Assembly: GCA_020847635.1 (NCBI GenBank)
Contig: JADLBQ010000043.1
Span: 1 to 58,660, forward strand
DNA: 58,660 nucleotides
DNA from: Bacteroidia bacterium
GTDB taxonomy: Bacteria; Bacteroidota; Bacteroidia; AKYH767-A; OLB10
Direction: 5' to 3'
The position numbers and the translations under genes were made by a program. The notes beneath the pieces were generated by a model. It did not search any database and was not told where the DNA came from. It saw nothing but the letters and a program-made list of their open reading frames with translations. Positions 12,961 through 40,046 of this stretch are shown here, piece after piece. The number at the start of each line of letters is the position of its first letter. The first letter of the stretch is position 1.

Positions 12961-13905
12961 ATGGTTAAAATAAAGTTTATTGAAGTCAAGTCAGAAATCG
13001 GGGCCGGCACTCGCGGTGCCAGTCTGGGAGTGGATGCATTAAAAATAGCAGCTCTTGTTTATGACAGTGCACTCTTCAACAAAATTGAATCTACTGAAGT
13101 TAAAAATGAGAATCAATCGTTGTTTGACCAGGCTGGAAGCCCTTATGCAAAGCGGATTAAAGACATTTATACAGTATGTGAACGGGTTGCCAAAGAAGTG
13201 AGCGATACATTAAAAAAGAAGAAATTCCCGATTGTGCTGGCCGGTGACCACAGTACAGCCTTTGGAACAATGGCAGGTATCCGAATGGCAAGACCCAAAC
13301 ACAGGCTTGGGGTCATCTGGATTGATGCTCATGCGGACATTCACTCGCCTTACACGACTCCTACCGGCAACATGCACGGAATGCCAATTGCAGCTGCACT
13401 TGGAGAAGATAACTATAGCAACCGGCTCAATAAACCGGATAAAGCCACGATTGAATGGTGGAATAAATTCAAGAACTTAGGAGGAACTTCAGCTAAGATT
13501 GATTACCGGGACCTGGTCTATATCGCATTGAGGGATGTTGAACCTGAAGAAACTTACCTTCTGAAAAAACATAAAGTAAAAACCTTCTCTACAGCAGAAG
13601 TTAAAAGAAACGGAGTTGAAAAAATTGCCCGCGATGCACTGGCATACCTGAATCACTGCAATTCCATTTATATTTCTTTTGATGTTGACAGCATGGATTC
13701 ATCCATCTCAAAAGGAACGGGCACTCCTGTCCGCAACGGCATCACCGAAAAAGAAGCAGGAAGCCTCTGTGGCCGGCTGGTTCAGAATGAAAAAGTAATC
13801 TGCTTTGAAATTGCTGAAATCAATCCTACTCTTTACAAGGAAAATCTGATGGCAGAAAATACGTACGAAATCCTGCAACGTGTAGTGAGTCAGATTTACT
13901 TTTGA
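12961..13905 (+). CDS. Arginase-family ureohydrolase
   Basis: A 314-residue ureohydrolase with all six manganese ligands of the family: His97 in GDHS, Asp122/His124/Asp126 in DAHAD, and Asp241/Asp243 in SFDVDSMD. The NMHGMPIAAALGE segment after the second motif resembles arginases (arginine to ornithine and urea) more than agmatinases. Even so, the divergent arginine decarboxylase makes agmatine hydrolysis worth keeping open. It is followed 6 bp later by argS, probably as one transcript. All three genes therefore use or consume arginine. Confidence 0.85.
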   Translation: MVKIKFIEVKSEIGAGTRGASLGVDALKIAALVYDSALFNKIESTEVKNENQSLFDQAGSPYAKRIKDIYTVCERVAKEVSDTLKKKKFPIVLAGDHSTAFGTMAGIRMARPKHRLGVIWIDAHADIHSPYTTPTGNMHGMPIAAALGEDNYSNRLNKPDKATIEWWNKFKNLGGTSAKIDYRDLVYIALRDVEPEETYLLKKHKVKTFSTAEVKRNGVEKIARDALAYLNHCNSIYISFDVDSMDSSISKGTGTPVRNGITEKEAGSLCGRLVQNEKVICFEIAEINPTLYKENLMAENTYEILQRVVSQIYF

Positions 13906-13911
13906 GCCGTT

Positions 13912-15714
13912 ATGACTTTTGAAAATGATCTCCGAACGGCTGCACTTCAGGCAGTAAAAGACCTGTTTGGCGATGAACTAAAACCAGATTCTTTCCAGGT
14001 TCAGAGAACAAAACCCGAATTTGAAGGTGATCTCACTTTAGTTGTTTTCCCGTTAACCCGGTTATCAAAAAAATCGCCTGAAGTAACAGGGAAAATAATA
14101 GGTGAATACCTGATTGCACATTGCCCGTTTTTGGATTCATTTAATACGGTAAAAGGATTTCTGAATCTGCGTGTGAAAAACGCAGCCTGGTTAAACATGC
14201 TCAATGAGGCTGTTACAACACCAGATTTCGGAATTAAGCCAGTAGAAGATGATTCAGCCCCATTTGTAATTGAATATTCTTCACCCAATACCAATAAACC
14301 GCTGCACCTTGGCCATGTCAGAAACATCCTGCTGGGCTGGAGTGTTGCCCAGATTTTGAATGCTGCCGGCCGGAAAGTTTACAAAGTAAACCTGATCAAT
14401 GACCGCGGAATTCATATCTGTAAAAGCATGTTAGCCTGGCAAAAAACAGGTAACGGTGAAACCCCCGAATCATCAGGTATGAAAGGAGATCACCTGGTCG
14501 GTAAATACTATGTAAAATTTGACCAGTTGCTCAAAGCAGAAAAACAAGAGCTGATTTCAAAAGGGATGACCGAAGATGAAGCAGAAAAGAACTCACTTCT
14601 GATGGCTGAAGCTCGTGAAATGCTGCGGAAATGGGAAGCCGGAGATACTGATGTTATCCAGCTCTGGAAAACAATGAACGATTGGGTTTATGCCGGTTTT
14701 CATGTTACCTATCGCAACCTGGGTGTTGAATTTGATAAGATTTATTATGAATCTGATACCTATCAGCTTGGCAAAAAGATTGTTGAAGAAGGTCTTGCCC
14801 GAAAGGTCTTTTTCAAGAAGGAAGATGGATCTGTAAGAATTGATCTGACTGCTGAGGGATTAGACGAGAAAATCATTCTCCGGTCAGACGGAACAGCAGT
14901 TTATATTACTCAGGATATTGGTACTGCCAAACTCCGTTATGATGACTACCACTTTTCAAAAATGATTTATGTGGTCGGAAATGAACAGGATTACCATTTT
15001 AAAGTTCTAAAGCTGATTATTAAAAAACTAGGCTATGCATGGTCAGATGCAATTTATCATCTGAGCTATGGAATGGTTGACTTGCCTTCCGGGAAAATGA
15101 AATCAAGAGAAGGAACCGTTGTTGATGCGGATGAATTACTGAAAGATTTGTTCAGCGAATCAGAGCGAATTACAAGAGAATTAGGAAAGATTGATGATTT
15201 TGATTCGGATCTAGCACAGGCTCTTTACCGTACCATCGGTTTAGGAGCCTTAAAATACTTCCTGCTCAAAGTTGATCCTGAAAAAAGAATGCTTTTTAAC
15301 CCGGCTGAATCCATTGATTTTAGCGGAGACACAGGCCCTTTTATTCAATATACCTTTGCCCGGATTAAGTCTGTGCTGAGTAAAGCTGGTCAAACAGAAG
15401 TCTTCAGGGACTATACTTCAGTCGGAATTCCTGATACCTATCCGGCAAATAAGGAAGAGAAAGATTTAATCATTCATCTGCTTCAGTTTCCGGACACCAT
15501 TCAGGAAGCTGCTCAACGGCTAAGCCCATCGTTAATTGCACAATTTGCATTTCATGCAGCTAGGCAATATAACCTCTTCTATCATCATCACCCTATCCTG
15601 GATACAGACCAGCTTGCCTCTTCCCTGTTCCGGCTGAAGTTGTCTGCCTTTACAGCCAATATTCTTAACTTGTCTTTAAACCTGTTGGGCATTGATTCGC
15701 CTGAACGAATGTAA
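13912..15714 (+). CDS. argS: Arginyl-tRNA synthetase
   Basis: A class Ia synthetase charging tRNA-Arg. The 600 residues fit the family. The N-terminal additional domain (about residues 1-110) precedes the Rossmann fold, which carries the HIGH-equivalent HLGH in NKPLHLGHVRN. The KMSKS region appears as GKMKSREGT, and the DALR anticodon-binding domain closes the protein (about residues 480-600, with AFHAARQYNLFYHHHPIL). It starts 6 bp after the arginase stop. Confidence 0.95.
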   Translation: MTFENDLRTAALQAVKDLFGDELKPDSFQVQRTKPEFEGDLTLVVFPLTRLSKKSPEVTGKIIGEYLIAHCPFLDSFNTVKGFLNLRVKNAAWLNMLNEAVTTPDFGIKPVEDDSAPFVIEYSSPNTNKPLHLGHVRNILLGWSVAQILNAAGRKVYKVNLINDRGIHICKSMLAWQKTGNGETPESSGMKGDHLVGKYYVKFDQLLKAEKQELISKGMTEDEAEKNSLLMAEAREMLRKWEAGDTDVIQLWKTMNDWVYAGFHVTYRNLGVEFDKIYYESDTYQLGKKIVEEGLARKVFFKKEDGSVRIDLTAEGLDEKIILRSDGTAVYITQDIGTAKLRYDDYHFSKMIYVVGNEQDYHFKVLKLIIKKLGYAWSDAIYHLSYGMVDLPSGKMKSREGTVVDADELLKDLFSESERITRELGKIDDFDSDLAQALYRTIGLGALKYFLLKVDPEKRMLFNPAESIDFSGDTGPFIQYTFARIKSVLSKAGQTEVFRDYTSVGIPDTYPANKEEKDLIIHLLQFPDTIQEAAQRLSPSLIAQFAFHAARQYNLFYHHHPILDTDQLASSLFRLKLSAFTANILNLSLNLLGIDSPERM

Positions 15715-15878: not shown

Positions 15879-18800
15879 ATGCCGATTCAATTAACCCAAC
15901 AGCAGAAGGAGTTGCTTGATAAGTATAATCGTACACAAGCTGTATTCCCTTCCCTTCCACTGGCTGCTTTACTGGAAGAACAAACCCGGATTACTCCATC
16001 AAAGGAAGCCATCCGATATAAGAACACCTCCCTCTCTTATTCTGAATTAAATAGTCGGGCAAATCAGTTTGCTCATTTTCTCAGAAAAGAAGGAGCAGGC
16101 AGAAACCAATACATCGGGTTATGTATCAGCAGATCAGCTGAATTGGCCGTTACAATTGCCGGAATAATCAAATCAGGAGCTGCCTACGTTCCGTTTGATC
16201 CTACCTACCCCCATGAAAGAATCCGGTACATGATCCGGCAATCCGGAATCAGGATTGTAATTGCTGAAAAGCAGTTTGTTCACCTGTTTTCCGGATCGCA
16301 GATAACGGTTCTTACGTTAGAAGAACTCACCCCTCCCCGCCTTATTAATGAAAGTAAGGATAATCCGGAACAGATTAATTTCCCGGAAGATGCTGCCTAT
16401 GTGTTGTTTACTTCAGGTTCCACAGGTTCCCCAAAAGGAGTGGTTATGATTCACCGGGCATTAAGCAACCTGATTTACTGGCAAAAGACAAAAACTAATC
16501 TGAGTTCAGCTGCTGTAACTCTTCAGTTTGCTCCAATCAGTTTTGATGTTTCGTTTCAGGAATTGTTTTCAACCTGGGCTACCGGTGGTAGCCTGGTTAT
16601 GATTGATGATGATTTTAGGTTAAATGCCATCAAACTGCTTGAATTCATCCAATCCGAAAAAATTGAACGGCTTTTCCTGCCTTTCATTGCGTTACAACAT
16701 TTATCCCGGGTTGCAGTTGATATCAATACTTACCCTGACACCTTAAAAGATGTCATTACAGCTGGTGAACAATTACGAATTACTTCATCAATCCGTAAAT
16801 TCTTTTCAGAATTAAAAACGGTTCAACTTCACAACCATTACGGTCCTACCGAAACGCATGTCATTACAGCTTATACATTACCGTCAGACAGAAACACCTG
16901 GCCTGAGTTACCACCAATCGGGACTCCCGTTTCTAATACAAAGATCTTTCTACTGGATGAAAATTTGCAACCTGTAAAAGAAGGTGAGGAAGGTGAACTT
17001 TATGCGGAAGGAGCTGCCCTGGCTCAGGGATATATTAATGCAGAAGCATTAACCAATGAACGGTTTATCACCAATCCGTTCGATCGTGATTCGAGGCTTT
17101 ATAAAACTGGTGACCTCGCCCGGTATACTCATGATGGAACAATTGAATACTTGGGCCGTGCTGACGGTCAGGTAAAAGTCAGGGGGTATCGGATTGAATT
17201 GGCAGAAGTTGAATCCGCTATTGAAAAACATACTGATGTTAAGCAGGCAGTAGCAACTGTTAGGGAGGATGAACCCGGCAATAAAAAACTGACAGCTTAT
17301 GTTGTAATGAATCAGCCGGTTTCATTCAGTACAGGCAAAATCAGGGATCACCTAAAAACGCTTTTACCTGATTATATGATGCCATCTGCAATTATTCAGG
17401 TAAAGGATTTTCCCAGAACACCGAGTGGAAAAATTGATAAGCGTTCTCTTCCAAAACCCGAAAATAAACGACCTGATCTATCCAATCCTTATATAGAACC
17501 TGTTACCGAACTTGAGAAAATTCTTGCTTCATTATGGTGCAGTTTGCTTGAAATTGACAAAGCCGGAACTGAAGATAATTTCTTCGACTTGGGAGGCAAT
17601 TCACTACTTGCCCTCCAGATGATTGCCCGTTTAAAAACAGAATATGGGTATGATTTACAAGTTGTCAGGCTGTATCAGCATCCTACCATCAGAGGAATTG
17701 AGAACGTGCTTTCAGGAGCCGATACCGGATATTCATTTTATGAGAAAGCACAGCAGCGCGCTGATTTAAAACAAACTTCAACCGCCAAAATTAATTCTGT
17801 TGAAGATGGAGTTGCCATAATTGGTATGGCTGGGCGATTTCCGGGAGCAGCAACAATTAAAGAACTCTGGGAAATTATTTCTCAAGGTAAGGAAACAACT
17901 AAGTTCTTTACCCGTGAAGAACTTGATCCTTCAATCCCGGAAGAAACAAAAAATGATTCTTCTTACGTAGCTGCCCGTGGAGTTATTGAAGATGCAGATA
18001 AATTTGATGCCTCCTTTTTTGGTATTAATCCAAAAGTTGCTGAATTGATGGATCCGCAGCAACGGGTAATGCTCGAAACGGCCTGGGCGGCACTTGAGCA
18101 TGCCGGCTACTGTGCTGATCAGTATCAGGGCCTGATTGGCGTTTTTGCAGGGATGGGTAATAATACCTACTACCCGAACAATGTTCATCCAAATCATGAA
18201 AAAATCGAACGGGTAGGTTCATTCCTGGTTATGACCGGTAATGAAAAAGACTATATAGCTACACGGATTGCACATGAGATGAATCTTACAGGACCAGCTC
18301 TGAGTATTCATACAGCCTGCTCAACTTCATTGGTTTCTGTTGCCGTTGCTTTTGAAAATTTATTAAATAATAAATGCGACATGGCACTGGCAGGCGGAGT
18401 TTCCATAACTGTACCCGTGAACAGCGGCCATATATATAATGAAGGTGGTATGTTTTCTTCTGATGGCCATACCCGGCCATTCGATGCCAAAGCAACCGGA
18501 ACCGTCTTTAGTGATGGATGTGGAATGGTTGTTTTAAAAAGGTACCGGGATGCTGTAAAAGACGGTGATCGGATATATGCAGTAATCCGTGGTGCAGCTC
18601 TCAATAATGACGGATCCGGGAAAGCCAGTTTCACAGCTCCAAGTGTGGATGGCCAGGCAATGGTCATTTCGCTTGCCCAGGCTCAGGCTGGCGTTGATCC
18701 AGGAACAATTACTTATGTAGAAACTCACGGAACGGCAACTCCGCTGGGCGATCCCATTGAAGTAGAAGCTCTAACCCTAGCATTCAGAGGCAAGACAGAT

Positions 18801-21800
18801 AAAAAGCAATTTTGTGCCCTGGGTTCAGTTAAAAGCAATTTTGGTCATCTTACTCCTGCAGCCGGAGTGACTGGACTTATCAAAACTGTTCTGTCTATGC
18901 AGCACCGGCAGATTCCGGCAACACTTCATTTTGAAAAAGCAAATCCTGCCATTGATTTTGAGAACAGTCCGTTCTATGTGAATAATAAACTGATTGAATG
19001 GAATACGAACGGTACTCCCAGGCGAGCGGGAATCAGTTCATTTGGTGTTGGCGGCACCAATGTTCATATTGTAGTTGAAGAGGCACCTGAACAACAGCCT
19101 TCAGGAATTGCAAGAAGCAAACATCTGTTGCTGATCTCTGCAAAATCAACATCGGCTCTTGACAAGACAGATTCCGATCTTTCAAACTACCTGGCCAATC
19201 ATCCTGAATTAAAGATGGCAGATGCTGCCTATACGCTCCAGTGTGGAAGGAAATTTTTTAACCACCGCAGATTTAAAGTAACCGGAGACCTGCCCGATAA
19301 GCCGTCTCCGAAAAATTCAGCATCAGGTGTTACCGGTCCGGTTATTCCCGGTGTTGTTTTTATGTTTCCCGGACAAGGTGCTCAGTATGTAAACATGGGG
19401 CAGAACCTCTACCGTGATGAAATTGTATTCAGGCAGGCAGTAACTCAATGTGCTGAACATTTTACAACATACCTCAAGCGTGATATTCGTGACGTATTGT
19501 ATCCGTCAAAAGGAAAAGAAAATGAAAGCAGTGAATTATTAAAAGAAACCTCCTTTACACAACCGGCATTGTTTACAATCGGTTATGCCCTTGCAAAGCT
19601 ATGGGAGCATTGGGGGATAACACCTAAAGCGTTAATTGGACATAGCATTGGTGAATATGCTGCGGCTTGTATTGCCGGGATCATGTCGCTGGAAGACGCT
19701 TGTATGGTAGTAGCCGCTCGCGGAATGATGATGCAAAATCTTCCAGCAGGTTCAATGTTAAGTGTTCGTCTTGCATCTGATGATGTGAAACCCTATCTCA
19801 ATCCTAAACTATCAATTGCAGCAATCAACGGTCCCCAGCTTTGTGTGGTATCGGGAGAAACTGCAGAAGTTGAAAAACTGCAGAAACGACTTGAAGAAAA
19901 GGAAATTATCTGTAAACTACTTGTTACTTCACATGCATTCCATTCTTCAATGATGGATCCGATGCTTAAACCATTTGAGGATAAAATAAAAACAATCCGG
20001 TTGCATGCACCTCAGATACCAATGGTTTCAACAGTTACAGCGGACTGGCTTAAAAAAGAAGAAGCCATGTCACCTGCATACTGGAGCAACCAGATCAGAT
20101 CGGCTGTTCGTTTTGCAGAAGGCGTTCAGACCTTATGGAAAGTTAATCAGGATTATTTTCTGCTTGAACTGGGTCCACGGGCTACCGCTTCAACCTTGGC
20201 AAGACAGCAGGCAACAGATCAGAAAAGGCAAGTTGCCTACCCCTGCCTTTCAGACACTGCCGAAAATGATGCTGAATGGAGTTCTATCTTATTTGCAACC
20301 GGCCAGTTATGGCTTAAAGGTATATCTATTAACCGGGATCAGTTTTATGCTCTTGAAAACAGAAAGCGTGTTCCGCTTCCAACTTATCCGTTCGAAAGAA
20401 AGCGTTATTGGGTAGATCCGCCTGGAGCAACCCAATCACCTGGAATTCAATCTCCTACTCCCGTTTTACAGCCGTTCATCCAACAACCACCTGTCGAACA
20501 AAATGTAGCTAAAATTACTATGAAGAATAACCGAAAAGAAAAAATTATCAATGAACTGAAAAACATGTTTGAAGAAGCATCAGGTATCGAAATGCAGCAT
20601 GCTCCATCTGATGTCTCTTTTGTTGAACTGGGGCTTGATTCACTGTTCTTAACTCAGACGGCCTTAAGCATCACCAAACAATATGGAGTTAAAGTCACGT
20701 TCAGACAGTTAAATGATGACTTATCTACCCTGGATACTCTATCCGGCTTTCTGGATTCCAAACTACCCGAAGATTCTGTAACACCAGAAGTCCAGCCTCA
20801 GTCCCCACCTACCCGACCTGTACCGTTTGTTCAACAGCCGATGACCTCATCCAATGATATGAATACCATCATGATGCAACAAATGCAGCTTATGCAACAA
20901 ATGATGATGCAGCAGATAATGATTCAACAAGGAGTTCAACCGGTTGTTCAGCAACCTGCGCCTGCCGTTCAGGCTCATATTGAGAAAAGCGTTGAGATCA
21001 AAGCACAGACCAAAAAGGAAGATTTAACTGAGAACGAAAAGGCAGATCTGGCAAAACCCTTTGGAGCTATTGCCCGGATTGAAAAAACAAGTTCCGGTGA
21101 TTTAACTGATGCCCAAAAGAAATGGCTTCATGAATTTACGCAGAACTACAATAAAAAGACTGCTAAATCAAAAGCCTGGTGTCAATATCACCGCAAGCAC
21201 CTTGCTGATCCCAGGGTTGTAACCGGCTTCAAACCTCAATTAAAAGAACTAATATATCAGATTGTGGTGAATAAGTCAAAAGGAGTCAACATGTGGGACT
21301 TAGATGGCAATCAATATACCGATGTATTGAATGGTTTTGGAAGTAATTTTTTCGGTTGGGGTTCCGATCTGTTGATGAAAACCTGGAAGAAACAACTGGA
21401 AGAAGGAATTGAACTGGGCCCTCAGACTGAACTTGCTGGCGAATGTGCCGAACTGATTTGTAGCCTGACCGGTTATGATCGTGCTGGTTTTTGCAATACC
21501 GGAAGTGAAGCTGTACTGGGAGCAATGCGAATAGCAAGAACAGTGACAGGCCGAAATCTGATAGTCTGCTTTAACGGATCCTATCATGGTATTAATGATG
21601 AAATCATCGTCAGAGGCAGTAAATCCCTGAAATCATTTCCTGCAGCGGCAGGAATCCCCAAAGAAAGTGTTCAGAATATGCTGGTGCTTGATTATGGAAC
21701 AAAAGAATCGCTTGACATCATTCGTGAACGGATTGATGAAATAGCCGCGGTTATGATTGAACCCATTCAAAGCCGAAGAGCCGATTTCCATCCGAAAGAA

Positions 21801-22607
21801 TTTATTCATGATGTCAGAAAGATAACGAAAGAAAACGGTGTGTTGATGATTTTTGACGAAGTAATCACTGGCTTTAGACTCAGACTTGGAGGTGCCCAGG
21901 AATATTATGAAGTGGATGCTGATATCAGCACCTATGGAAAGGTTATTGGAGGCAATATGCCGATTGGAGCTATTGCCGGCCGGAAGGAGTATATGGATGC
22001 ATTAGACGGAGGTTACTGGCAGTTTGGCGATGATTCGGTCCCGGAGGTTGGCGTAACTTACTTTGCCGGAACATTTGTCCGTCATCCGTTAGCCATGGCA
22101 GCCATGAAAGAAGTATTACTTTTCCTAAAACAGCAAGGAAAGCCTTTGTTCGAAATGCTCAATGGTAAAACCCAACGCCTGGTGGATGAAGTAAACGCAC
22201 ACTGCAAACAGCTGAACATTGCGTACAAGCTGGTTACTTTTGGTTCCTTGTTTAAATCAAAATGGGACATTGAACCTGCTTATACCGAACTTTTATTTGC
22301 ACGGATGCGCTATAAAGGAGTTCATATTATGGACGGATTCCCATGCTTCCTCACCCTTGCATTTACTGATGCTGATGTGGATTTTGTCATAAAAACTTTT
22401 AAAGAATCGCTGAGTGAATTAACCGAACTTGGCTTTATTCCACTTCACAATTCAACAGCCTCATCAAACGGATTCAACAGTAACGGACATCCAACTGCTA
22501 ACAAACCACCTGTTCCTGGAGCAAAACTTGGAAAAGATCAGAATGGCAAACCCGGATGGTTTGTACCAGATCCGGAAAGACCGGGTAAGTACCTTCAGAT
22601 AAAATAA
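15879..22607 (+). CDS. Hybrid NRPS-PKS-aminotransferase megasynthase (A-PCP-KS-AT-ACP-AMT)
   Basis: A 2242-residue assembly line. Adenylation domain, about residues 25-525: SGSTGSPKG near 180, YGPTE, GRADGQVKVRGYR, and PSGKIDKR near 515. Carrier 1: GGNSL, Ser575. Ketosynthase, 643-1070: Cys814 in TACSTS, His950 in THGTA, His990 in NFGH. Acyltransferase, about 1155-1450: Ser1256 in GHSIGEY; HAFH at 1352-1355 indicates malonyl-CoA. Carrier 2: LGLDSL, Ser1588. A Met/Gln-rich linker follows (1661-1692), then a class III PLP aminotransferase, about 1770-2195, with Lys2021 in TYGKVIGG. No condensation, ketoreductase, thioesterase or terminal reductase domain is present. The order recalls the KS-AT-ACP-AMT part of iturin and mycosubtilin synthetases. 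Expected chemistry: an aminoacyl starter is extended by malonate and the beta-ketone aminated. The pocket positions read D-V-Q-F-I-A-H-V-I, close to proline codes. The release route and product are unknown. Confidence 0.92.
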   Translation: MPIQLTQQQKELLDKYNRTQAVFPSLPLAALLEEQTRITPSKEAIRYKNTSLSYSELNSRANQFAHFLRKEGAGRNQYIGLCISRSAELAVTIAGIIKSGAAYVPFDPTYPHERIRYMIRQSGIRIVIAEKQFVHLFSGSQITVLTLEELTPPRLINESKDNPEQINFPEDAAYVLFTSGSTGSPKGVVMIHRALSNLIYWQKTKTNLSSAAVTLQFAPISFDVSFQELFSTWATGGSLVMIDDDFRLNAIKLLEFIQSEKIERLFLPFIALQHLSRVAVDINTYPDTLKDVITAGEQLRITSSIRKFFSELKTVQLHNHYGPTETHVITAYTLPSDRNTWPELPPIGTPVSNTKIFLLDENLQPVKEGEEGELYAEGAALAQGYINAEALTNERFITNPFDRDSRLYKTGDLARYTHDGTIEYLGRADGQVKVRGYRIELAEVESAIEKHTDVKQAVATVREDEPGNKKLTAYVVMNQPVSFSTGKIRDHLKTLLPDYMMPSAIIQVKDFPRTPSGKIDKRSLPKPENKRPDLSNPYIEPVTELEKILASLWCSLLEIDKAGTEDNFFDLGGNSLLALQMIARLKTEYGYDLQVVRLYQHPTIRGIENVLSGADTGYSFYEKAQQRADLKQTSTAKINSVEDGVAIIGMAGRFPGAATIKELWEIISQGKETTKFFTREELDPSIPEETKNDSSYVAARGVIEDADKFDASFFGINPKVAELMDPQQRVMLETAWAALEHAGYCADQYQGLIGVFAGMGNNTYYPNNVHPNHEKIERVGSFLVMTGNEKDYIATRIAHEMNLTGPALSIHTACSTSLVSVAVAFENLLNNKCDMALAGGVSITVPVNSGHIYNEGGMFSSDGHTRPFDAKATGTVFSDGCGMVVLKRYRDAVKDGDRIYAVIRGAALNNDGSGKASFTAPSVDGQAMVISLAQAQAGVDPGTITYVETHGTATPLGDPIEVEALTLAFRGKTDKKQFCALGSVKSNFGHLTPAAGVTGLIKTVLSMQHRQIPATLHFEKANPAIDFENSPFYVNNKLIEWNTNGTPRRAGISSFGVGGTNVHIVVEEAPEQQPSGIARSKHLLLISAKSTSALDKTDSDLSNYLANHPELKMADAAYTLQCGRKFFNHRRFKVTGDLPDKPSPKNSASGVTGPVIPGVVFMFPGQGAQYVNMGQNLYRDEIVFRQAVTQCAEHFTTYLKRDIRDVLYPSKGKENESSELLKETSFTQPALFTIGYALAKLWEHWGITPKALIGHSIGEYAAACIAGIMSLEDACMVVAARGMMMQNLPAGSMLSVRLASDDVKPYLNPKLSIAAINGPQLCVVSGETAEVEKLQKRLEEKEIICKLLVTSHAFHSSMMDPMLKPFEDKIKTIRLHAPQIPMVSTVTADWLKKEEAMSPAYWSNQIRSAVRFAEGVQTLWKVNQDYFLLELGPRATASTLARQQATDQKRQVAYPCLSDTAENDAEWSSILFATGQLWLKGISINRDQFYALENRKRVPLPTYPFERKRYWVDPPGATQSPGIQSPTPVLQPFIQQPPVEQNVAKITMKNNRKEKIINELKNMFEEASGIEMQHAPSDVSFVELGLDSLFLTQTALSITKQYGVKVTFRQLNDDLSTLDTLSGFLDSKLPEDSVTPEVQPQSPPTRPVPFVQQPMTSSNDMNTIMMQQMQLMQQMMMQQIMIQQGVQPVVQQPAPAVQAHIEKSVEIKAQTKKEDLTENEKADLAKPFGAIARIEKTSSGDLTDAQKKWLHEFTQNYNKKTAKSKAWCQYHRKHLADPRVVTGFKPQLKELIYQIVVNKSKGVNMWDLDGNQYTDVLNGFGSNFFGWGSDLLMKTWKKQLEEGIELGPQTELAGECAELICSLTGYDRAGFCNTGSEAVLGAMRIARTVTGRNLIVCFNGSYHGINDEIIVRGSKSLKSFPAAAGIPKESVQNMLVLDYGTKESLDIIRERIDEIAAVMIEPIQSRRADFHPKEFIHDVRKITKENGVLMIFDEVITGFRLRLGGAQEYYEVDADISTYGKVIGGNMPIGAIAGRKEYMDALDGGYWQFGDDSVPEVGVTYFAGTFVRHPLAMAAMKEVLLFLKQQGKPLFEMLNGKTQRLVDEVNAHCKQLNIAYKLVTFGSLFKSKWDIEPAYTELLFARMRYKGVHIMDGFPCFLTLAFTDADVDFVIKTFKESLSELTELGFIPLHNSTASSNGFNSNGHPTANKPPVPGAKLGKDQNGKPGWFVPDPERPGKYLQIK

Positions 22608-34247: not shown

Positions 34248-37200
34248 TTACCAGTTTCCTGTCATATTGGACTGACCGCTACAATTTCCAAATCCAAATG
34301 ACAAATCAGTATTCCCTCCTGAATCCAACGATAAGTTCACTTTGATACTCTGACTCACTCCAACACCTCCACAATATTCGCAACAGATGCCGTCACTCCA
34401 GCAAAGTGTGGGAACACATTGCTCAACACTTCCGCTTATCGAAAAACTTCCGCAGCCTTTCAGAGAAAAATTTCCATTTGAAGAAGTATAAATTCCTTTC
34501 ATACCCAGTTCAGCTCTTGCCTCTGCACCAAACTTGGTGCAGGTAATTGAAGCACCTTTGAGATAGGCGTGCACAAATGCCATGGCACCAATTCCATATT
34601 CATTTCCTGCATCATCAAACCCCATCCACAATCGCGCATCAAGTCCTGCCTTGGCTCCGAAAGAAGCACTGATGACACCTAAATCAACACTGTAATCAGG
34701 TATATTAATGACAGGTAAATCTTTCATTCCTGTAAAGAAGAATCCTGAAACTTTATTCTGAATACTTGGCGGTACATTTTTGTCGTAGGCATATTGCATT
34801 ATTTTCTGAGTGATATCGGATGAAATGGAACTGTAATCACCTACCATCATTCCTGCATTTAAAGTACCAATGCCCGGAGTTTGCACAGCACCACCGGCAA
34901 GAAAATACCATCCGCTTCCATCCACCACCATGTTGGCAGTACCTGAAATATACAATGCACCAATTTGTTTGTTCAGTTGCAAATCGCCAATAAATCTTGA
35001 ATTGGGAACATCATACGTAATTCCAATATCACCAAATGCAGAAGGAATATTCTTTACTTCCACTTTCTGATTATTTGCAGTTACTGAACCATAAACCGTA
35101 AAAGTTTTACGTGTATCACCCTGCATTCCTTTGAAGCCATCCATTCTTCCGGAGAAAGTGAAATTCTTCCATGCACCGGTAGTCATATCTGCATCCATTT
35201 TACCTTCAATATCTGTTAATGAGCCACTACCCAATGCCATTTTTTGATTCTTTGGATTTACTTCAATCCATGCAGCGTTAGTAGTTCGATTGAGTTGTGC
35301 TTTGAGATTAATTCCTTCTTTGTCTCTGATTGTACCAATAGCTGTAAACTTTCCTGTGGTCAGCTGCTGAGGATGATCATTGAACTGAATATTGGCAACA
35401 AAGTCCACATTACCCGGTCCATGCAAGGATACATTAATCGGATACAATTCAAACTGAATTTCACCGGCAGGTTTGGAAAATCGAATTGCACCTGAAACCT
35501 CTTCCAGTTGCGGGATATCCAAATCAATTCCGCATGCAAAATCAAAATACTTATCGCCTCCGGTAAGTCCAAGAGGTTTAGCTTTGAGCACATTGTAGAA
35601 AGTAATGATCTGAGCCTGATTTCCGGGAACAATAATCTGATCACCATTGCTGATAAGTGAGAACTTCTGAAACTTGATCAGGTCACCAGCTTTCATGCCG
35701 GGTAAATTGCCAATCGTAACTCCGGGTTGTCCGCCATCACCAATGATTCTTAATTCCCAGTGAGGTTTATGGTCATTGCCTGCACTTGGGTTATAACCAA
35801 ACACAGGATTGTTTGCAACCACATTCACAGGAGTTACTCCGGCAAGTGTAAGACCGTTAACCTGAGCATCACCTATTTCCAAATCATCCGGTTTGATACG
35901 GACATTCTTTAAAGGAATATCTACAACACCTGTTTTCAATGTTCCTTCAGGAATATTGATGCTTGATGAACTTTGTTGTAAGATCCAGTTGTTACCCACA
36001 AAATCCCATTTCTCCAATTTGAATTTTATTGGATTGTTATTATTCAGCGGATCGAATTTGTCAGGATGGATCACTAACTCACCTGCATCAATTTCCAGTT
36101 TAGAGGGTATCATTGACGGAATATTTTCAATTGACAAAATGGTAGCCAGATGGATGCTGTTACCTTCCAGGTATGATTTCTGATTATCTGCTTTTGCTTT
36201 AAATCCATTGAGCGTATAAGTCAGCACTTTACCGTTTAAATCAGCAACGCCAAATTTTTTCTTTGCATACCCCCCTACATCAATACTTGTAACCGTTGTA
36301 TTAAGTGAACCCTGTTTATCTGTCAGTGAAAATGCATTATCCTGATTACTGTTAAATGTGATATAATTCTCTGAAATTTTAAATCCTGATTTCTGAACAG
36401 CAATTTTACCCGAAATTCTGCCTTTGTTATTCATGGATGAGATGATGATCACCTCACCGCTTTCGGGAGTCTGAACAACACCAAAAGATTGTTGCAGCAT
36501 CAATTTAAGACTTGCCAGATCACTTGAAAATTTACTCTCTGCAGGAATACCGACAGGAATATTATTTTTTAACTCAGTGCTTTTCTTAATCTTGAGGTTA
36601 GTAAACGGGATATTTTGTTTGTTATCCTGCAACGTAAAGTTATCATTGGCGGGAATATTAATCAGATTTCCGCTGAGTAACCATGTGCCGTCTTTTTGCT
36701 TTTCCTTTGATTGTACATCTACATCAAAACCAAAAATCTGATCAATGACAATTTCTTTATCTATTTCAAGATTAAAATCAAGTGTATTCACCAATTTGAC
36801 AGAAATATTTTCAGTATGACTGATAATATTTGGCACTGCTCCCGGTTTTGAAGCCCACACTTTTTGTGTAGCAGGAGTCATTGGCACACCTTTCAAAACA
36901 TATTTCCCCTGAGCATCGGTTTTTGTTTCAAGGTTTTTTCCATTACCCATCTCAATATAAACGGTTGCACCTTCCAACGGAGCTTTTGCAGTTCCGAGTG
37001 TAACTGTTCCATTGATGACAGCTGATTTTCGGAGATAGGCAGGACCGTAAGTTTTCATTTCTTTCGAATTTTTCACTCCGGAAAGAGAATATGTTCCTGT
37101 TTCATAGTCTGCATCTGCAGGAGGTGTGATAATAAAATCGAAATGCTCAGCCATACTTTCGAAAGTGAAACTTACATAACCTTGTTTGTCGGTTACCTGC

Positions 37201-40046
37201 GAAATCTGCTGACCCGGAAGATCAATTTTTACAGTAGCTCCGGAAACCGGTTTGGATGATCCAGGCAAATTCAACCGGCCTGGTGTATTTTTTTCGAGAA
37301 CCTGAAAACGGATACGTTTTTGCGCCTTAAAAACGATGAATCTAATAAAAGGCTGATGTTTGCCATCACTCACTTTGATATTCATTATGGTATCCATTGC
37401 AAAGTATCCCTGATCCACAGGTTGAATTGAGATTTTTCTTTTATTACCTGAGGGTGCTGCAGTTCTGAATGTCTGTCTTGATTTAAATGTAATATTACCT
37501 CTACCGCTACCCTGTCCTATCAACTCTGCCAGAGTGGTTACCTTAATCAATCCATCAATATCAACATCCGATTCAACAGCATTTCCATTCTCATCTTCTA
37601 CATAACCGTTTATCCAGCCATCGGGTTCAAGGCTGAAGTCAATGTTTGTCTTTTGTTCACCCCATAACATAGGCGGCATGGGTGGGTTAGCAGGATAAGT
37701 GCCACTTTTAAATCCATCGGGTTTGGTAATAAGGGTGCGTGTTGGACCAATAACCTTACTTGTTTCACCAATTTTAAAACCTTCTGTTTCTACATCCAGG
37801 TTGTTGAACTCATATCTTCCGTCACCGTCTGTTTTCACTACAGTAAATAATTTCGATGGATCGCTATTGTTCTTATAGCCGTTGATGCTTACAACTTTTA
37901 CATCAACAAAAGGTTTTGCACCTACATTTTTTGCAACTTCCACTTTCCCTGCAATCCGTGGCCGGCCCGGATAAACACCTACACTGTCAGTATAAGTTTT
38001 CACTACCAACTCACTGTTCCAAATAATGGAAGAACCATATTGTATGGGAATTTTAAAACCACTGCTTGGAATATATTCACCAATGGAATTAAACGGAAAA
38101 TAATTTTTGTCTTTATCCCATAGCGGATAATAACTTTTTTCTTTAGGATCGAAGATAAATTCACCGGCCATTTTATCTGGTTTGCAGTTGATGTAATATC
38201 TGTCTGCAAAGTTGTTTGGGTCATGCTGAATGAGGTTATGAAAAATAGCATAACCCTGACCATCTGTAATTTTTTCAGATGAATTATTTGCTCCTCTGAA
38301 ATAAACAACATTTGCTGTTTTAACTTCACCTTCATCAGGAGGTGCATTCGGTGGTTTTGCTTTACGCAGCATATATATTGGCACACCTGATAAGTATGTG
38401 CCTATGCCTTTGTAGCTATCCCAGTAGGGGCTATTTGTCCATGTTACTCTTACCTTCAGGTTATAGCTTTTAACTAATGCAACTAATGAACCTACATCCA
38501 CACCTTTCCATGGATCAACCTTGATATTTGCATCTGAACTGCAGTAATAATTATTTTCTACCTTGATGCGATAAACTTTATATAACTTACCAATGGCAGT
38601 TTTTTTAAATTCACCTCCACCGGTTGTCAAATTAAATTTATCATTAATCAGTCCGATTTCATTCTGCACATTCAGAAAATTAAACTTAAAGTTTCCATCT
38701 GCATCCGTAGTTGTGGTAGAAATAACTTTGTCCATATCTTTAAAATAAGACTGGGTATTGTAAAGAGAACCTTCTTTGATTACTTGTCCTGAATATGTTT
38801 CATTATCTATTTTTCCGTCTAACACATAGGTAAGCACCAAACTGATTTTGGTATTTGCCAAAGGTTTTGCACCTGTTGTGCTGAGAGGTTCCTGATTGTA
38901 TTTCATTTGGTCAGGAACCGGTTGGCCCGGCAAATGTGTGGTTACATTATAGTTTAAATTTGGAGGTTGATTTCCCACGGTTGCTCCTGTTACTCCGGTC
39001 GCAGTTTCAAATCTGTACAACAGTTTTCCTTTTACTTCACTTACAGGTACTGGATTGTAATTAAAAGCCTGGTAAAACTGCCCGGCTAAAGTAACCGGTG
39101 ATGCCTGAACAATGGAAATGACTGCAGTATTACCATAATTAAAAGTCGTAACTTCACTTCTGCCATCATTCTGAAATACAACTTTCTTATTCAAATCCCT
39201 TGCAATAACCTGCACAGCATAGGTGGCTCCGGTGTCGAGTTTCAAATCATAAGGCTGAGTGATATATTGATTAGTAAAAAGATCTGTCTTGATCAAAGGG
39301 TTATTGGCCTTATATCCCACTGCAGCATTTATTGCATCATTAGGCGATTGACCGGGCATAACTTTTACTGCATACAAATCATAAACTACTTGAGCACCCA
39401 TGATATTTCCTGCAGGAGGAGTCCATGAAAAAATAACATGGGGCTGAAGCGAAGGAACAGTCTGACCGTTGAGCGGAGACATGATAACAGGTGGAGCAGC
39501 ATACATTATGTTCAAGGGGAAACAGCTTTCATCAGATGCAGGAAGGGCTATCCCATCGAAATCTATCGCCATTGCCTGGACGCATAGCTCCCAGTTTCCT
39601 TCTGGAAGTAGGTCGTTTTTCAAAACAAGAGGTAATAATTCAGGGAAACTACTCCTGACAACTTCCTTTCTTAAAAACCGAAGCTGAACAGGATCCACCG
39701 TAAATACTTTTGTTTCGAGCGGATTGAAGGTGAGCAGCTGGGATGGAGCATAATTCTCTATCGTTGTAATAAACTCGTCTGATGTTCTTTTAAGGCTGCC
39801 ATGAAGAGTTATCCTGTCAATTACAGCCGAAGTATTAGGATTCACGACTGTGATGATGACCTTGTTGGACAAATCGGCATACTCACTGAATACTGATGAT
39901 ACTGGTGGTTTAGCAACTACGGTTACCTTCAGAGGCATAACCATAATCTGTGCTGACACAGGCAGAGTAAACCATAATAAAGAGAATAACCATAACAGAC
40001 GTTTAATCTCCTTCTTTGAAATAGATAGTAGTTGGCCTGTTTTCAT
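34248..40046 (-). CDS. Giant 1932-residue exported protein, TANFOR-like with carboxypeptidase-regulatory repeats
   Basis: The signal peptide ends near residue 33 (LPVSAQ). The N-terminal region (MPLKVTVVAKPPVSSVFSEY, then LSNKVIITVVNPN) resembles TANFOR-domain proteins named from Tannerella. A PLNGQTVPSLQPHVIFSWTPP segment follows near residue 195. The middle has several carboxypeptidase-regulatory-like beta modules (VVKTDGDGRYEFNNLDVET; DGWINGYVEDENGNAV; APLEGATVYIEMG with TKTDAQGKYVLKGVP). The last third is repetitive beta with low similarity to anything I know. The final about 100 residues hold eight cysteines, including CC and CEYC. No lipobox, LPxTG or type IX sorting tail is visible. 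It lies between a predicted barrel gene (11 bp) and the FN3 gene (28 bp), which suggests a joint surface structure. Confidence 0.78.
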   Translation of the reverse strand: MKTGQLLSISKKEIKRLLWLFSLLWFTLPVSAQIMVMPLKVTVVAKPPVSSVFSEYADLSNKVIITVVNPNTSAVIDRITLHGSLKRTSDEFITTIENYAPSQLLTFNPLETKVFTVDPVQLRFLRKEVVRSSFPELLPLVLKNDLLPEGNWELCVQAMAIDFDGIALPASDESCFPLNIMYAAPPVIMSPLNGQTVPSLQPHVIFSWTPPAGNIMGAQVVYDLYAVKVMPGQSPNDAINAAVGYKANNPLIKTDLFTNQYITQPYDLKLDTGATYAVQVIARDLNKKVVFQNDGRSEVTTFNYGNTAVISIVQASPVTLAGQFYQAFNYNPVPVSEVKGKLLYRFETATGVTGATVGNQPPNLNYNVTTHLPGQPVPDQMKYNQEPLSTTGAKPLANTKISLVLTYVLDGKIDNETYSGQVIKEGSLYNTQSYFKDMDKVISTTTTDADGNFKFNFLNVQNEIGLINDKFNLTTGGGEFKKTAIGKLYKVYRIKVENNYYCSSDANIKVDPWKGVDVGSLVALVKSYNLKVRVTWTNSPYWDSYKGIGTYLSGVPIYMLRKAKPPNAPPDEGEVKTANVVYFRGANNSSEKITDGQGYAIFHNLIQHDPNNFADRYYINCKPDKMAGEFIFDPKEKSYYPLWDKDKNYFPFNSIGEYIPSSGFKIPIQYGSSIIWNSELVVKTYTDSVGVYPGRPRIAGKVEVAKNVGAKPFVDVKVVSINGYKNNSDPSKLFTVVKTDGDGRYEFNNLDVETEGFKIGETSKVIGPTRTLITKPDGFKSGTYPANPPMPPMLWGEQKTNIDFSLEPDGWINGYVEDENGNAVESDVDIDGLIKVTTLAELIGQGSGRGNITFKSRQTFRTAAPSGNKRKISIQPVDQGYFAMDTIMNIKVSDGKHQPFIRFIVFKAQKRIRFQVLEKNTPGRLNLPGSSKPVSGATVKIDLPGQQISQVTDKQGYVSFTFESMAEHFDFIITPPADADYETGTYSLSGVKNSKEMKTYGPAYLRKSAVINGTVTLGTAKAPLEGATVYIEMGNGKNLETKTDAQGKYVLKGVPMTPATQKVWASKPGAVPNIISHTENISVKLVNTLDFNLEIDKEIVIDQIFGFDVDVQSKEKQKDGTWLLSGNLINIPANDNFTLQDNKQNIPFTNLKIKKSTELKNNIPVGIPAESKFSSDLASLKLMLQQSFGVVQTPESGEVIIISSMNNKGRISGKIAVQKSGFKISENYITFNSNQDNAFSLTDKQGSLNTTVTSIDVGGYAKKKFGVADLNGKVLTYTLNGFKAKADNQKSYLEGNSIHLATILSIENIPSMIPSKLEIDAGELVIHPDKFDPLNNNNPIKFKLEKWDFVGNNWILQQSSSSINIPEGTLKTGVVDIPLKNVRIKPDDLEIGDAQVNGLTLAGVTPVNVVANNPVFGYNPSAGNDHKPHWELRIIGDGGQPGVTIGNLPGMKAGDLIKFQKFSLISNGDQIIVPGNQAQIITFYNVLKAKPLGLTGGDKYFDFACGIDLDIPQLEEVSGAIRFSKPAGEIQFELYPINVSLHGPGNVDFVANIQFNDHPQQLTTGKFTAIGTIRDKEGINLKAQLNRTTNAAWIEVNPKNQKMALGSGSLTDIEGKMDADMTTGAWKNFTFSGRMDGFKGMQGDTRKTFTVYGSVTANNQKVEVKNIPSAFGDIGITYDVPNSRFIGDLQLNKQIGALYISGTANMVVDGSGWYFLAGGAVQTPGIGTLNAGMMVGDYSSISSDITQKIMQYAYDKNVPPSIQNKVSGFFFTGMKDLPVINIPDYSVDLGVISASFGAKAGLDARLWMGFDDAGNEYGIGAMAFVHAYLKGASITCTKFGAEARAELGMKGIYTSSNGNFSLKGCGSFSISGSVEQCVPTLCWSDGICCEYCGGVGVSQSIKVNLSLDSGGNTDLSFGFGNCSGQSNMTGNW

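Follow-up and report, generated by a model that had tools for sequence, protein, structure and literature searches.

A solitary PKS-NRPS gene in a Bacteroidia genome that probably encodes the initial subunit of a split assembly line with an unlinked partner gene

Subunits of one biosynthetic assembly line may be encoded at separate loci, as is the case for pvdL and pvdIJD in the pyoverdine system. A hand-over between separate proteins directly after an aminotransferase (AMT) domain has been described for the laxaphycin pathway, in which LxaE, composed of acyltransferase (AT), acyl carrier protein (ACP) and AMT, passes a beta-amino acyl unit to two separate nonribosomal peptide synthetases (NRPSs) beginning with a condensation (C) domain (PMC7524897). 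In docking of the short linear motif (SLiM)/beta-hairpin type, as found in EpoA/B, TubB/C and Kj12, a disordered C-terminal motif of fewer than 15 residues binds an N-terminal alpha-beta-beta-alpha-alpha domain (PMC9113145). The present work deals with a megasynthase gene, here called gene 1, in a stretch of 58,660 bases from a Bacteroidia bacterium (GCA_020847635.1, contig JADLBQ010000043.1). This stretch, the window, is the whole of contig C43 in a genome of 2.58 Mb, 99.8% complete and in 94 contigs. Gene 1 joins an adenylation (A) and a peptidyl carrier protein (PCP) domain to a polyketide synthase (PKS) module with ketosynthase (KS), AT and ACP, and to a class III AMT. A PKS-NRPS with an AMT is a known kind of enzyme, and the reading of gene 1 as a solo enzyme without release is wrong. 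In our assessment gene 1 encodes, with a probability of about 0.87, the starting subunit of a hybrid PKS-NRPS made up of two proteins, with gene 2, the unlinked partner gene, coding for the other.

The partner was located elsewhere in the same genome. A genome-wide search with PF00668 gave one match only (E 1e-71), on contig C62, in an open reading frame (ORF) which starts with ATG, encodes a C and then an A domain, and leaves the contig end at base 14160. The end of another contig, C44, opens inside a PCP, which is followed by a thioesterase (TE), an Sfp-type phosphopantetheinyl transferase (PPTase) and a BadF-type ATPase; the PF00975 search of the genome returned this TE and one esterase-like protein. 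In a genome of the same genus (G001), a single contig holds clpC, gyrA, a TPR gene, gene 2, the PPTase and the BadF-type ATPase (names assigned from translations), the early part of this order being matched by C62 and the late part by C44. Gene 2 of G001 is intact, with 1339 residues and the order C-A-PCP-TE, and on alignment C62 spans its residues 5-829 (56% identity) and C44 its residues 1021-1329 (70%). Since the two contigs cover the G001 protein with nothing between them, about 190 residues should lie in an assembly gap, and no third contig with the missing piece was found in the genome. As both contigs match the G001 gene, the gene 2 of the window's genome can be read as C-A-(gap)-PCP-TE with the PPTase adjoining. 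The original prediction had considered a hand-over to an enzyme encoded elsewhere, and had proposed searching for an Sfp-type PPTase and for a free-standing C or TE protein with a docking end. The hand-over is well supported, as the one C domain of the genome is part of a C-A-...-PCP-TE protein encoded at a separate locus; both searches were successful, giving the C62/C44 gene and, beside it, the only PPTase detected. The idea of a missing PPTase is thus ruled out by its position directly after the partner TE. The PPTase gene is usually immediately downstream of gene 2, and the PPTase cluster is present at 17 of the compared loci. A search for other release enzymes with PF07993 gave SDR-like matches and, since 14 of 14 control genomes were positive too, its result is uninformative.

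Furthermore, the two genes are inherited together. Of the 24 genomes of the window's family, its own included, 17 have both genes and 7 have neither (Fisher p 3e-6, uncorrected for phylogeny; the shared ancestry of these genomes makes the true support smaller). Genes 1 and 2 are adjacent in nine genomes (G004, G006, G007, G010, G011, G014, G015, G018, G022) and unlinked in seven (G000, G001, G003, G005, G012, G016, G019), the assembly of G009 being too fragmented for a linkage call. Within the family, gene 1 has full-length homologues of 52-73% identity. The gene 1 tree and the tree of gene 2 C domains agree in most groupings (distance r 0.89, with 0 of 5000 permutations as high), and on the former the unlinked state requires at least two changes, one of them common to the window's genus and a sister genus. 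Even within the window's genus the site of gene 1 is not constant, being argS/phosphohexomutase in one species and tilS/moxR in another. As a separate observation, argS (window 12961-15714; L130, L124) adjoins gene 1 in G000 and G003 and is separated from gene 2 by a few genes in G005, G012 and G016. In a tree of 64 C domains, that of the window's genome groups with C domains of the PKS/AMT-following type (SH-aLRT 98), and its inner clade consists of split-line partners only (SH-aLRT 95), separate from 21 other C domains. A C domain of the AMT-following type is available in trans and is predicted to receive the beta-amino acyl chain.

The junction between the two proteins carries a signature on both sides. 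After the AMT, gene 1 ends in a conserved tail (PPVPGAKLGKDQNGKPGWFVPDPERPGKYLQIK) with the consensus PPxPGA+LG+DxxGxPAWFxPDPxRPGKY, of about 33 residues, which is conserved across phyla and in which P5, P6, A10, G13, G18, W22 and G31 are invariant. Homologues of gene 1 with about 2200 residues and the same end point occur in many genera, and the split point recurs in homologues from other phyla and from plasmids (Chamaesiphon, Leptolyngbya, Lysobacter, Variovorax, Sorangiineae and others). According to the original prediction, homologues continuing into C-A-PCP-TE modules would have indicated truncation; instead, they are split at the same point, with C-A-PCP-TE as a separate gene. Nor is an AMT end as unusual as had been supposed, since 47 of the 49 collected tail-bearing proteins end AMT-tail and LxaE is a published protein ending on an AMT (PMC7524897).

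On the other side, partner genes open with a V(D/E)(F/Y)(D/N)PF-like head directly before the C domain. All 52 partner genes, adjacent or unlinked, have the [FY][DN]PF head; none of the 12 other protein-initial C domains has it, and none of the 23 internal ones, four of which directly follow a fused AMT (distinct C domains were counted, close relatives separately). The tail, in turn, is absent from the fused AMT-C homologues examined. When 395 genomes of the phylum were searched with a tail profile, the window's genome and 13 others gave matches, nearly all of which precede a C-first gene with the head. In G503, a genome of another family, the tail gene has no adjacent C gene, and its sole strong partner match lies 32 kb away and bears the head VVDFDPF; the tail/head rule correctly predicted this unlinked partner. 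Moreover, in two f58 genomes (G305, G357; L163, L166, L172) the tail ends an A-PCP-KS-AT-ACP protein without AMT, and the next gene begins with a C domain bearing an FNPF head. The tail is therefore a feature of the junction rather than of the AMT, and a role as part of the AMT fold is ruled out by these two genomes.

For the tail AlphaFold2 predicts a small beta unit of three strands (pLDDT approximately 80-87) after a disordered linker from the AMT, while in the model of a homologue (L015) the head region is poorly ordered, with neither helices nor a hairpin predicted there. Comparison of the tail with Pfam and the PDB matched no known element, and tail strings gave no matches in the open literature. 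Tail and head look like an undescribed docking pair, as judged from their conservation. A solitary tail-bearing gene 1 (Slin_6901, L140:8287-15108) was also noted on the Spirosoma linguale plasmid pSLIN02, with no NRPS neighbour. It sits amid copper-resistance genes, and the Variovorax plasmid copies (L141, L142) are near copper genes too. A copper-metallophore role suggested by these plasmids finds no support in the chromosomal neighbours examined, mostly housekeeping genes.

The features of gene 1 are collected in Table 1.

Table 1. Coordinates of gene 1 and of its domains in the window
Feature	Position	Strand	Basis or remark
Gene 1: A-PCP-KS-AT-ACP-AMT-tail megasynthase	15879..22607	+	single ORF, 2242 aa
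A1 adenylation domain	15972..17432	+	Pfam; pocket D-V-Q-F-I-A-H-V-I
PCP1, Ser575	17523..17705	+	Pfam, residue check
KS with extension/linker, Cys814, HGTAT and NFGHL histidine motifs	17808..19280	+	Pfam
AT, Ser1256 GHSIGEY, HAFH motif	19356..20180	+	Pfam
ACP2, Ser1588	20553..20753	+	second PP-binding domain
AMT, class III aminotransferase, PLP (pyridoxal phosphate) Lys2021	21258..22397	+	Pfam; nearest structure MycA AMT
C-terminal tail, proposed docking element for C-first partner	22494..22604	+	sequence conservation, predicted structure

Pfam assigns to its residues AMP-binding (32-385), AMP-binding_C (443-518), PP-binding (549-609), KS (644-1019), KS extension (1022-1134), AT (1160-1434) and Aminotran_3 (1794-2173). 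The catalytic residues stand in the contexts GGNSL (Ser575), TACSTS (Cys814), GHSIG (Ser1256), GLDSL (Ser1588) and YGKVIGG (Lys2021), and both the Pfam assignment and the residue check bear out the six domains and five residues originally named. The closest solved structure to the AMT is that of MycA from mycosubtilin synthesis (6kfm/6kfu, E 1e-111). Around gene 1 the window has genes of housekeeping function (arginase, argS, phosphohexomutase, folD, ffh), of which argS and the phosphohexomutase had been noted before, and no C, TE, transporter or PPTase gene lies beside gene 1. Since gene 1 is internal to the 58,660-base contig and has its own stop codon, the assembly did not cut it, and truncation by a contig end is ruled out. 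The absence of a release domain holds for gene 1 and does not hold for the system, whose partner carries a terminal TE. Farther along the window (34248-40046, minus strand), a protein of 1932 residues has a carboxypeptidase-regulatory-like domain near residue 1011 and no Pfam match in the rest.

As regards the substrates, the A1 pocket in the window reads DVQFIAHVI and the family genomes with a readable code give DVQ(F/Y)IAHV(V/I/A). We take DVQ(F/L/Y)IAHV- to be the proline code, and the A1 codes of the family to be proline-like; A1 most likely activates proline. The A2 pocket of gene 2 in the window's genome is D-L-F-S-N-A-L-Y-V, and A2 codes vary among relatives, being presumably Asn- or Gly-like in other members of the family and Val-like in more distant homologues, a pattern suggesting a constant starter and a variable second residue across the family. 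The HAFH motif of the AT is presumably of the malonyl type. Literature searches for the predicted amino acid, or for a pathway of this sort, found nothing matching.

In the proposed scheme, A1 would load L-proline on PCP1, and KS and AT would add one malonyl-derived C2 unit. The module is KS-AT-ACP without a ketoreductase (KR), followed by the class III AMT with its PLP lysine, and for lack of a KR a beta-keto thioester should stay on ACP2 as the substrate of the AMT, as in MycA. The MycA-type AMT would turn the beta-ketone into an amine, the predicted product of gene 1 being a 3-amino-3-(pyrrolidin-2-yl)propanoyl (beta,gamma-diamino) thioester. The tail would then dock in trans with the FDPF head of the C-A-PCP-TE protein, coded between the gyrA/TPR block and the Sfp-type PPTase, which would join the unit to one amino acid. 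Its terminal TE-fold domain would free the product, and the PPTase would activate the carrier domains.

The release step deserves separate consideration. The terminal domain of the partner matches PF00975 in both C44 and G001 and has NRPS TE matches in the PDB. The positions aligned with the Ser-Asp-His triad are Cys, Asn and Asn/Asp in eight sequences of four genera, namely that of the window's genome (L061:7099-8054, C44) and those of G001, G004, G005, G010, G014, G016 and G019 (loci L061, L122, L124, L125, L126, L128, L129 and L139). The altered TE has a GLC nucleophile elbow, VNNYAP or INNYAP for FDxYAP and (N/D)ND for GDH, and carries a new conserved HMHNGN motif, while the partner TE of sister lineages retains Ser-Asp-His. 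Cysteine TEs are known for the formation of lactones and lactams, a precedent which leaves the replacement of all three triad residues unexplained. The unfamiliar release suggested by the original prediction thus stays partly alive, because the partner TE lacks the classical triad. As a further observation, in L136, L109 and L110 (G006, G022) the elbow of the partner TE is GGPCGG, with Pro-Cys for the usual serine elbow. We propose tentatively, and at somewhat less than even odds, that tail and head constitute a new docking class, a mirror of the SLiM/beta-hairpin pair which joins lines with far-apart genes, and that in the window's lineage the TE triad has been rebuilt (Cys plus polar residues) for a non-classical release.

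Several points weigh against a two-protein line. The middle of the genome's own gene 2, comprising the end of A2 and the PCP serine, lies in the assembly gap, so that its integrity is deduced from G001; proline as the substrate of A1 is deduced from nine pocket letters found by alignment; and the co-occurrence counts depend on phylogeny. Docking, product, substrate identities and release chemistry are points that we infer, and the partner TE without Ser-Asp-His makes the release step uncertain. The main rival, which we consider unlikely, is that gene 1 works alone, gene 2 serving another pathway, and that the diamino thioester releases itself as 1-aminopyrrolizidin-3-one. Such an uncatalysed closure is chemically possible since the pyrrolidine nitrogen, gamma to the thioester, permits a five-membered lactam, and a proline starter makes such a gamma-lactam chemically easy to close. 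The lack of a TE or C domain on gene 1, the location of the two genes on different contigs and the altered partner TE would also suit it. Nevertheless, it is difficult to reconcile with the strict co-occurrence, the congruent trees, the nine family genomes with adjacent genes, the kept tail/head pair and a partner C domain from the PKS/AMT-following clade.

It is highly improbable that gene 1 is in decay or was cut from a longer megasynthase, as its separation from the partner and its different position in two species of the genus might suggest, since all of the named catalytic residues are intact, homologues of some 2200 residues end at the same point in many genera, and the tail is conserved across phyla. 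Very little weight is likewise given to gene 1 feeding more than one partner or an unrecognised acceptor, with the C-A-PCP-TE protein as one outlet. At L013 and L133 two complete C-A-PCP-TE genes, both with a head of the FDPF type, do stand after the one gene 1, a logic like that of the shared laxaphycin starter (PMC7524897), but a single C domain was found in the window's own genome. The two partner genes at these loci (L013:16562-26045, L133:10538-18560; G049) differ in A code, and the pathway may branch here, with one starter leading to two products.

If the two-protein line is accepted, an apparent dead-end enzyme becomes a complete minimal pathway to proline-derived beta,gamma-diamino peptides in Bacteroidota, comprising two proteins and a PPTase. 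The tail/head signature provides a genome-mining rule for pairing unclustered PKS and NRPS subunits, an unlinked pair being one that cluster-based tools would list as two incomplete clusters. The docking pair, if true, would be a new part for the engineering of hybrid lines, and it is the docking-like tail/head pair, together with the altered TE, which may be new to the specialist.

Compared with known systems, the line resembles mycosubtilin/iturin MycA in having an AMT of the class III PLP fold between a PKS module and an NRPS C domain. It differs in that MycA uses a fatty-acyl starter, whereas an amino-acid A-PCP starter with one C2 extension is predicted here, and in that the line is divided into two proteins directly after the AMT. 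With laxaphycin/scytocyclamide LxaE it shares an AMT-ending protein handing over to a separate C-first NRPS, although the LxaE line has a fatty-acyl starter, makes large peptides and is encoded in one cluster. As in the SLiM/beta-hairpin pairs, matched short elements stand at the C-terminus of the donor and the N-terminus of the C-first NRPS; unlike the SLiM donor motif, the tail has about 33 residues and is predicted to be ordered, with three strands, and in the L015 model the partner N-terminus lacks the alpha-beta-beta-alpha-alpha docking domain, a short stretch preceding the C domain. On these models the SLiM/beta-hairpin arrangement is reversed relative to the tail/head pair. Finally, as in pyoverdine synthesis, the subunits are coded apart, with the difference that here a line of two subunits is split in half.

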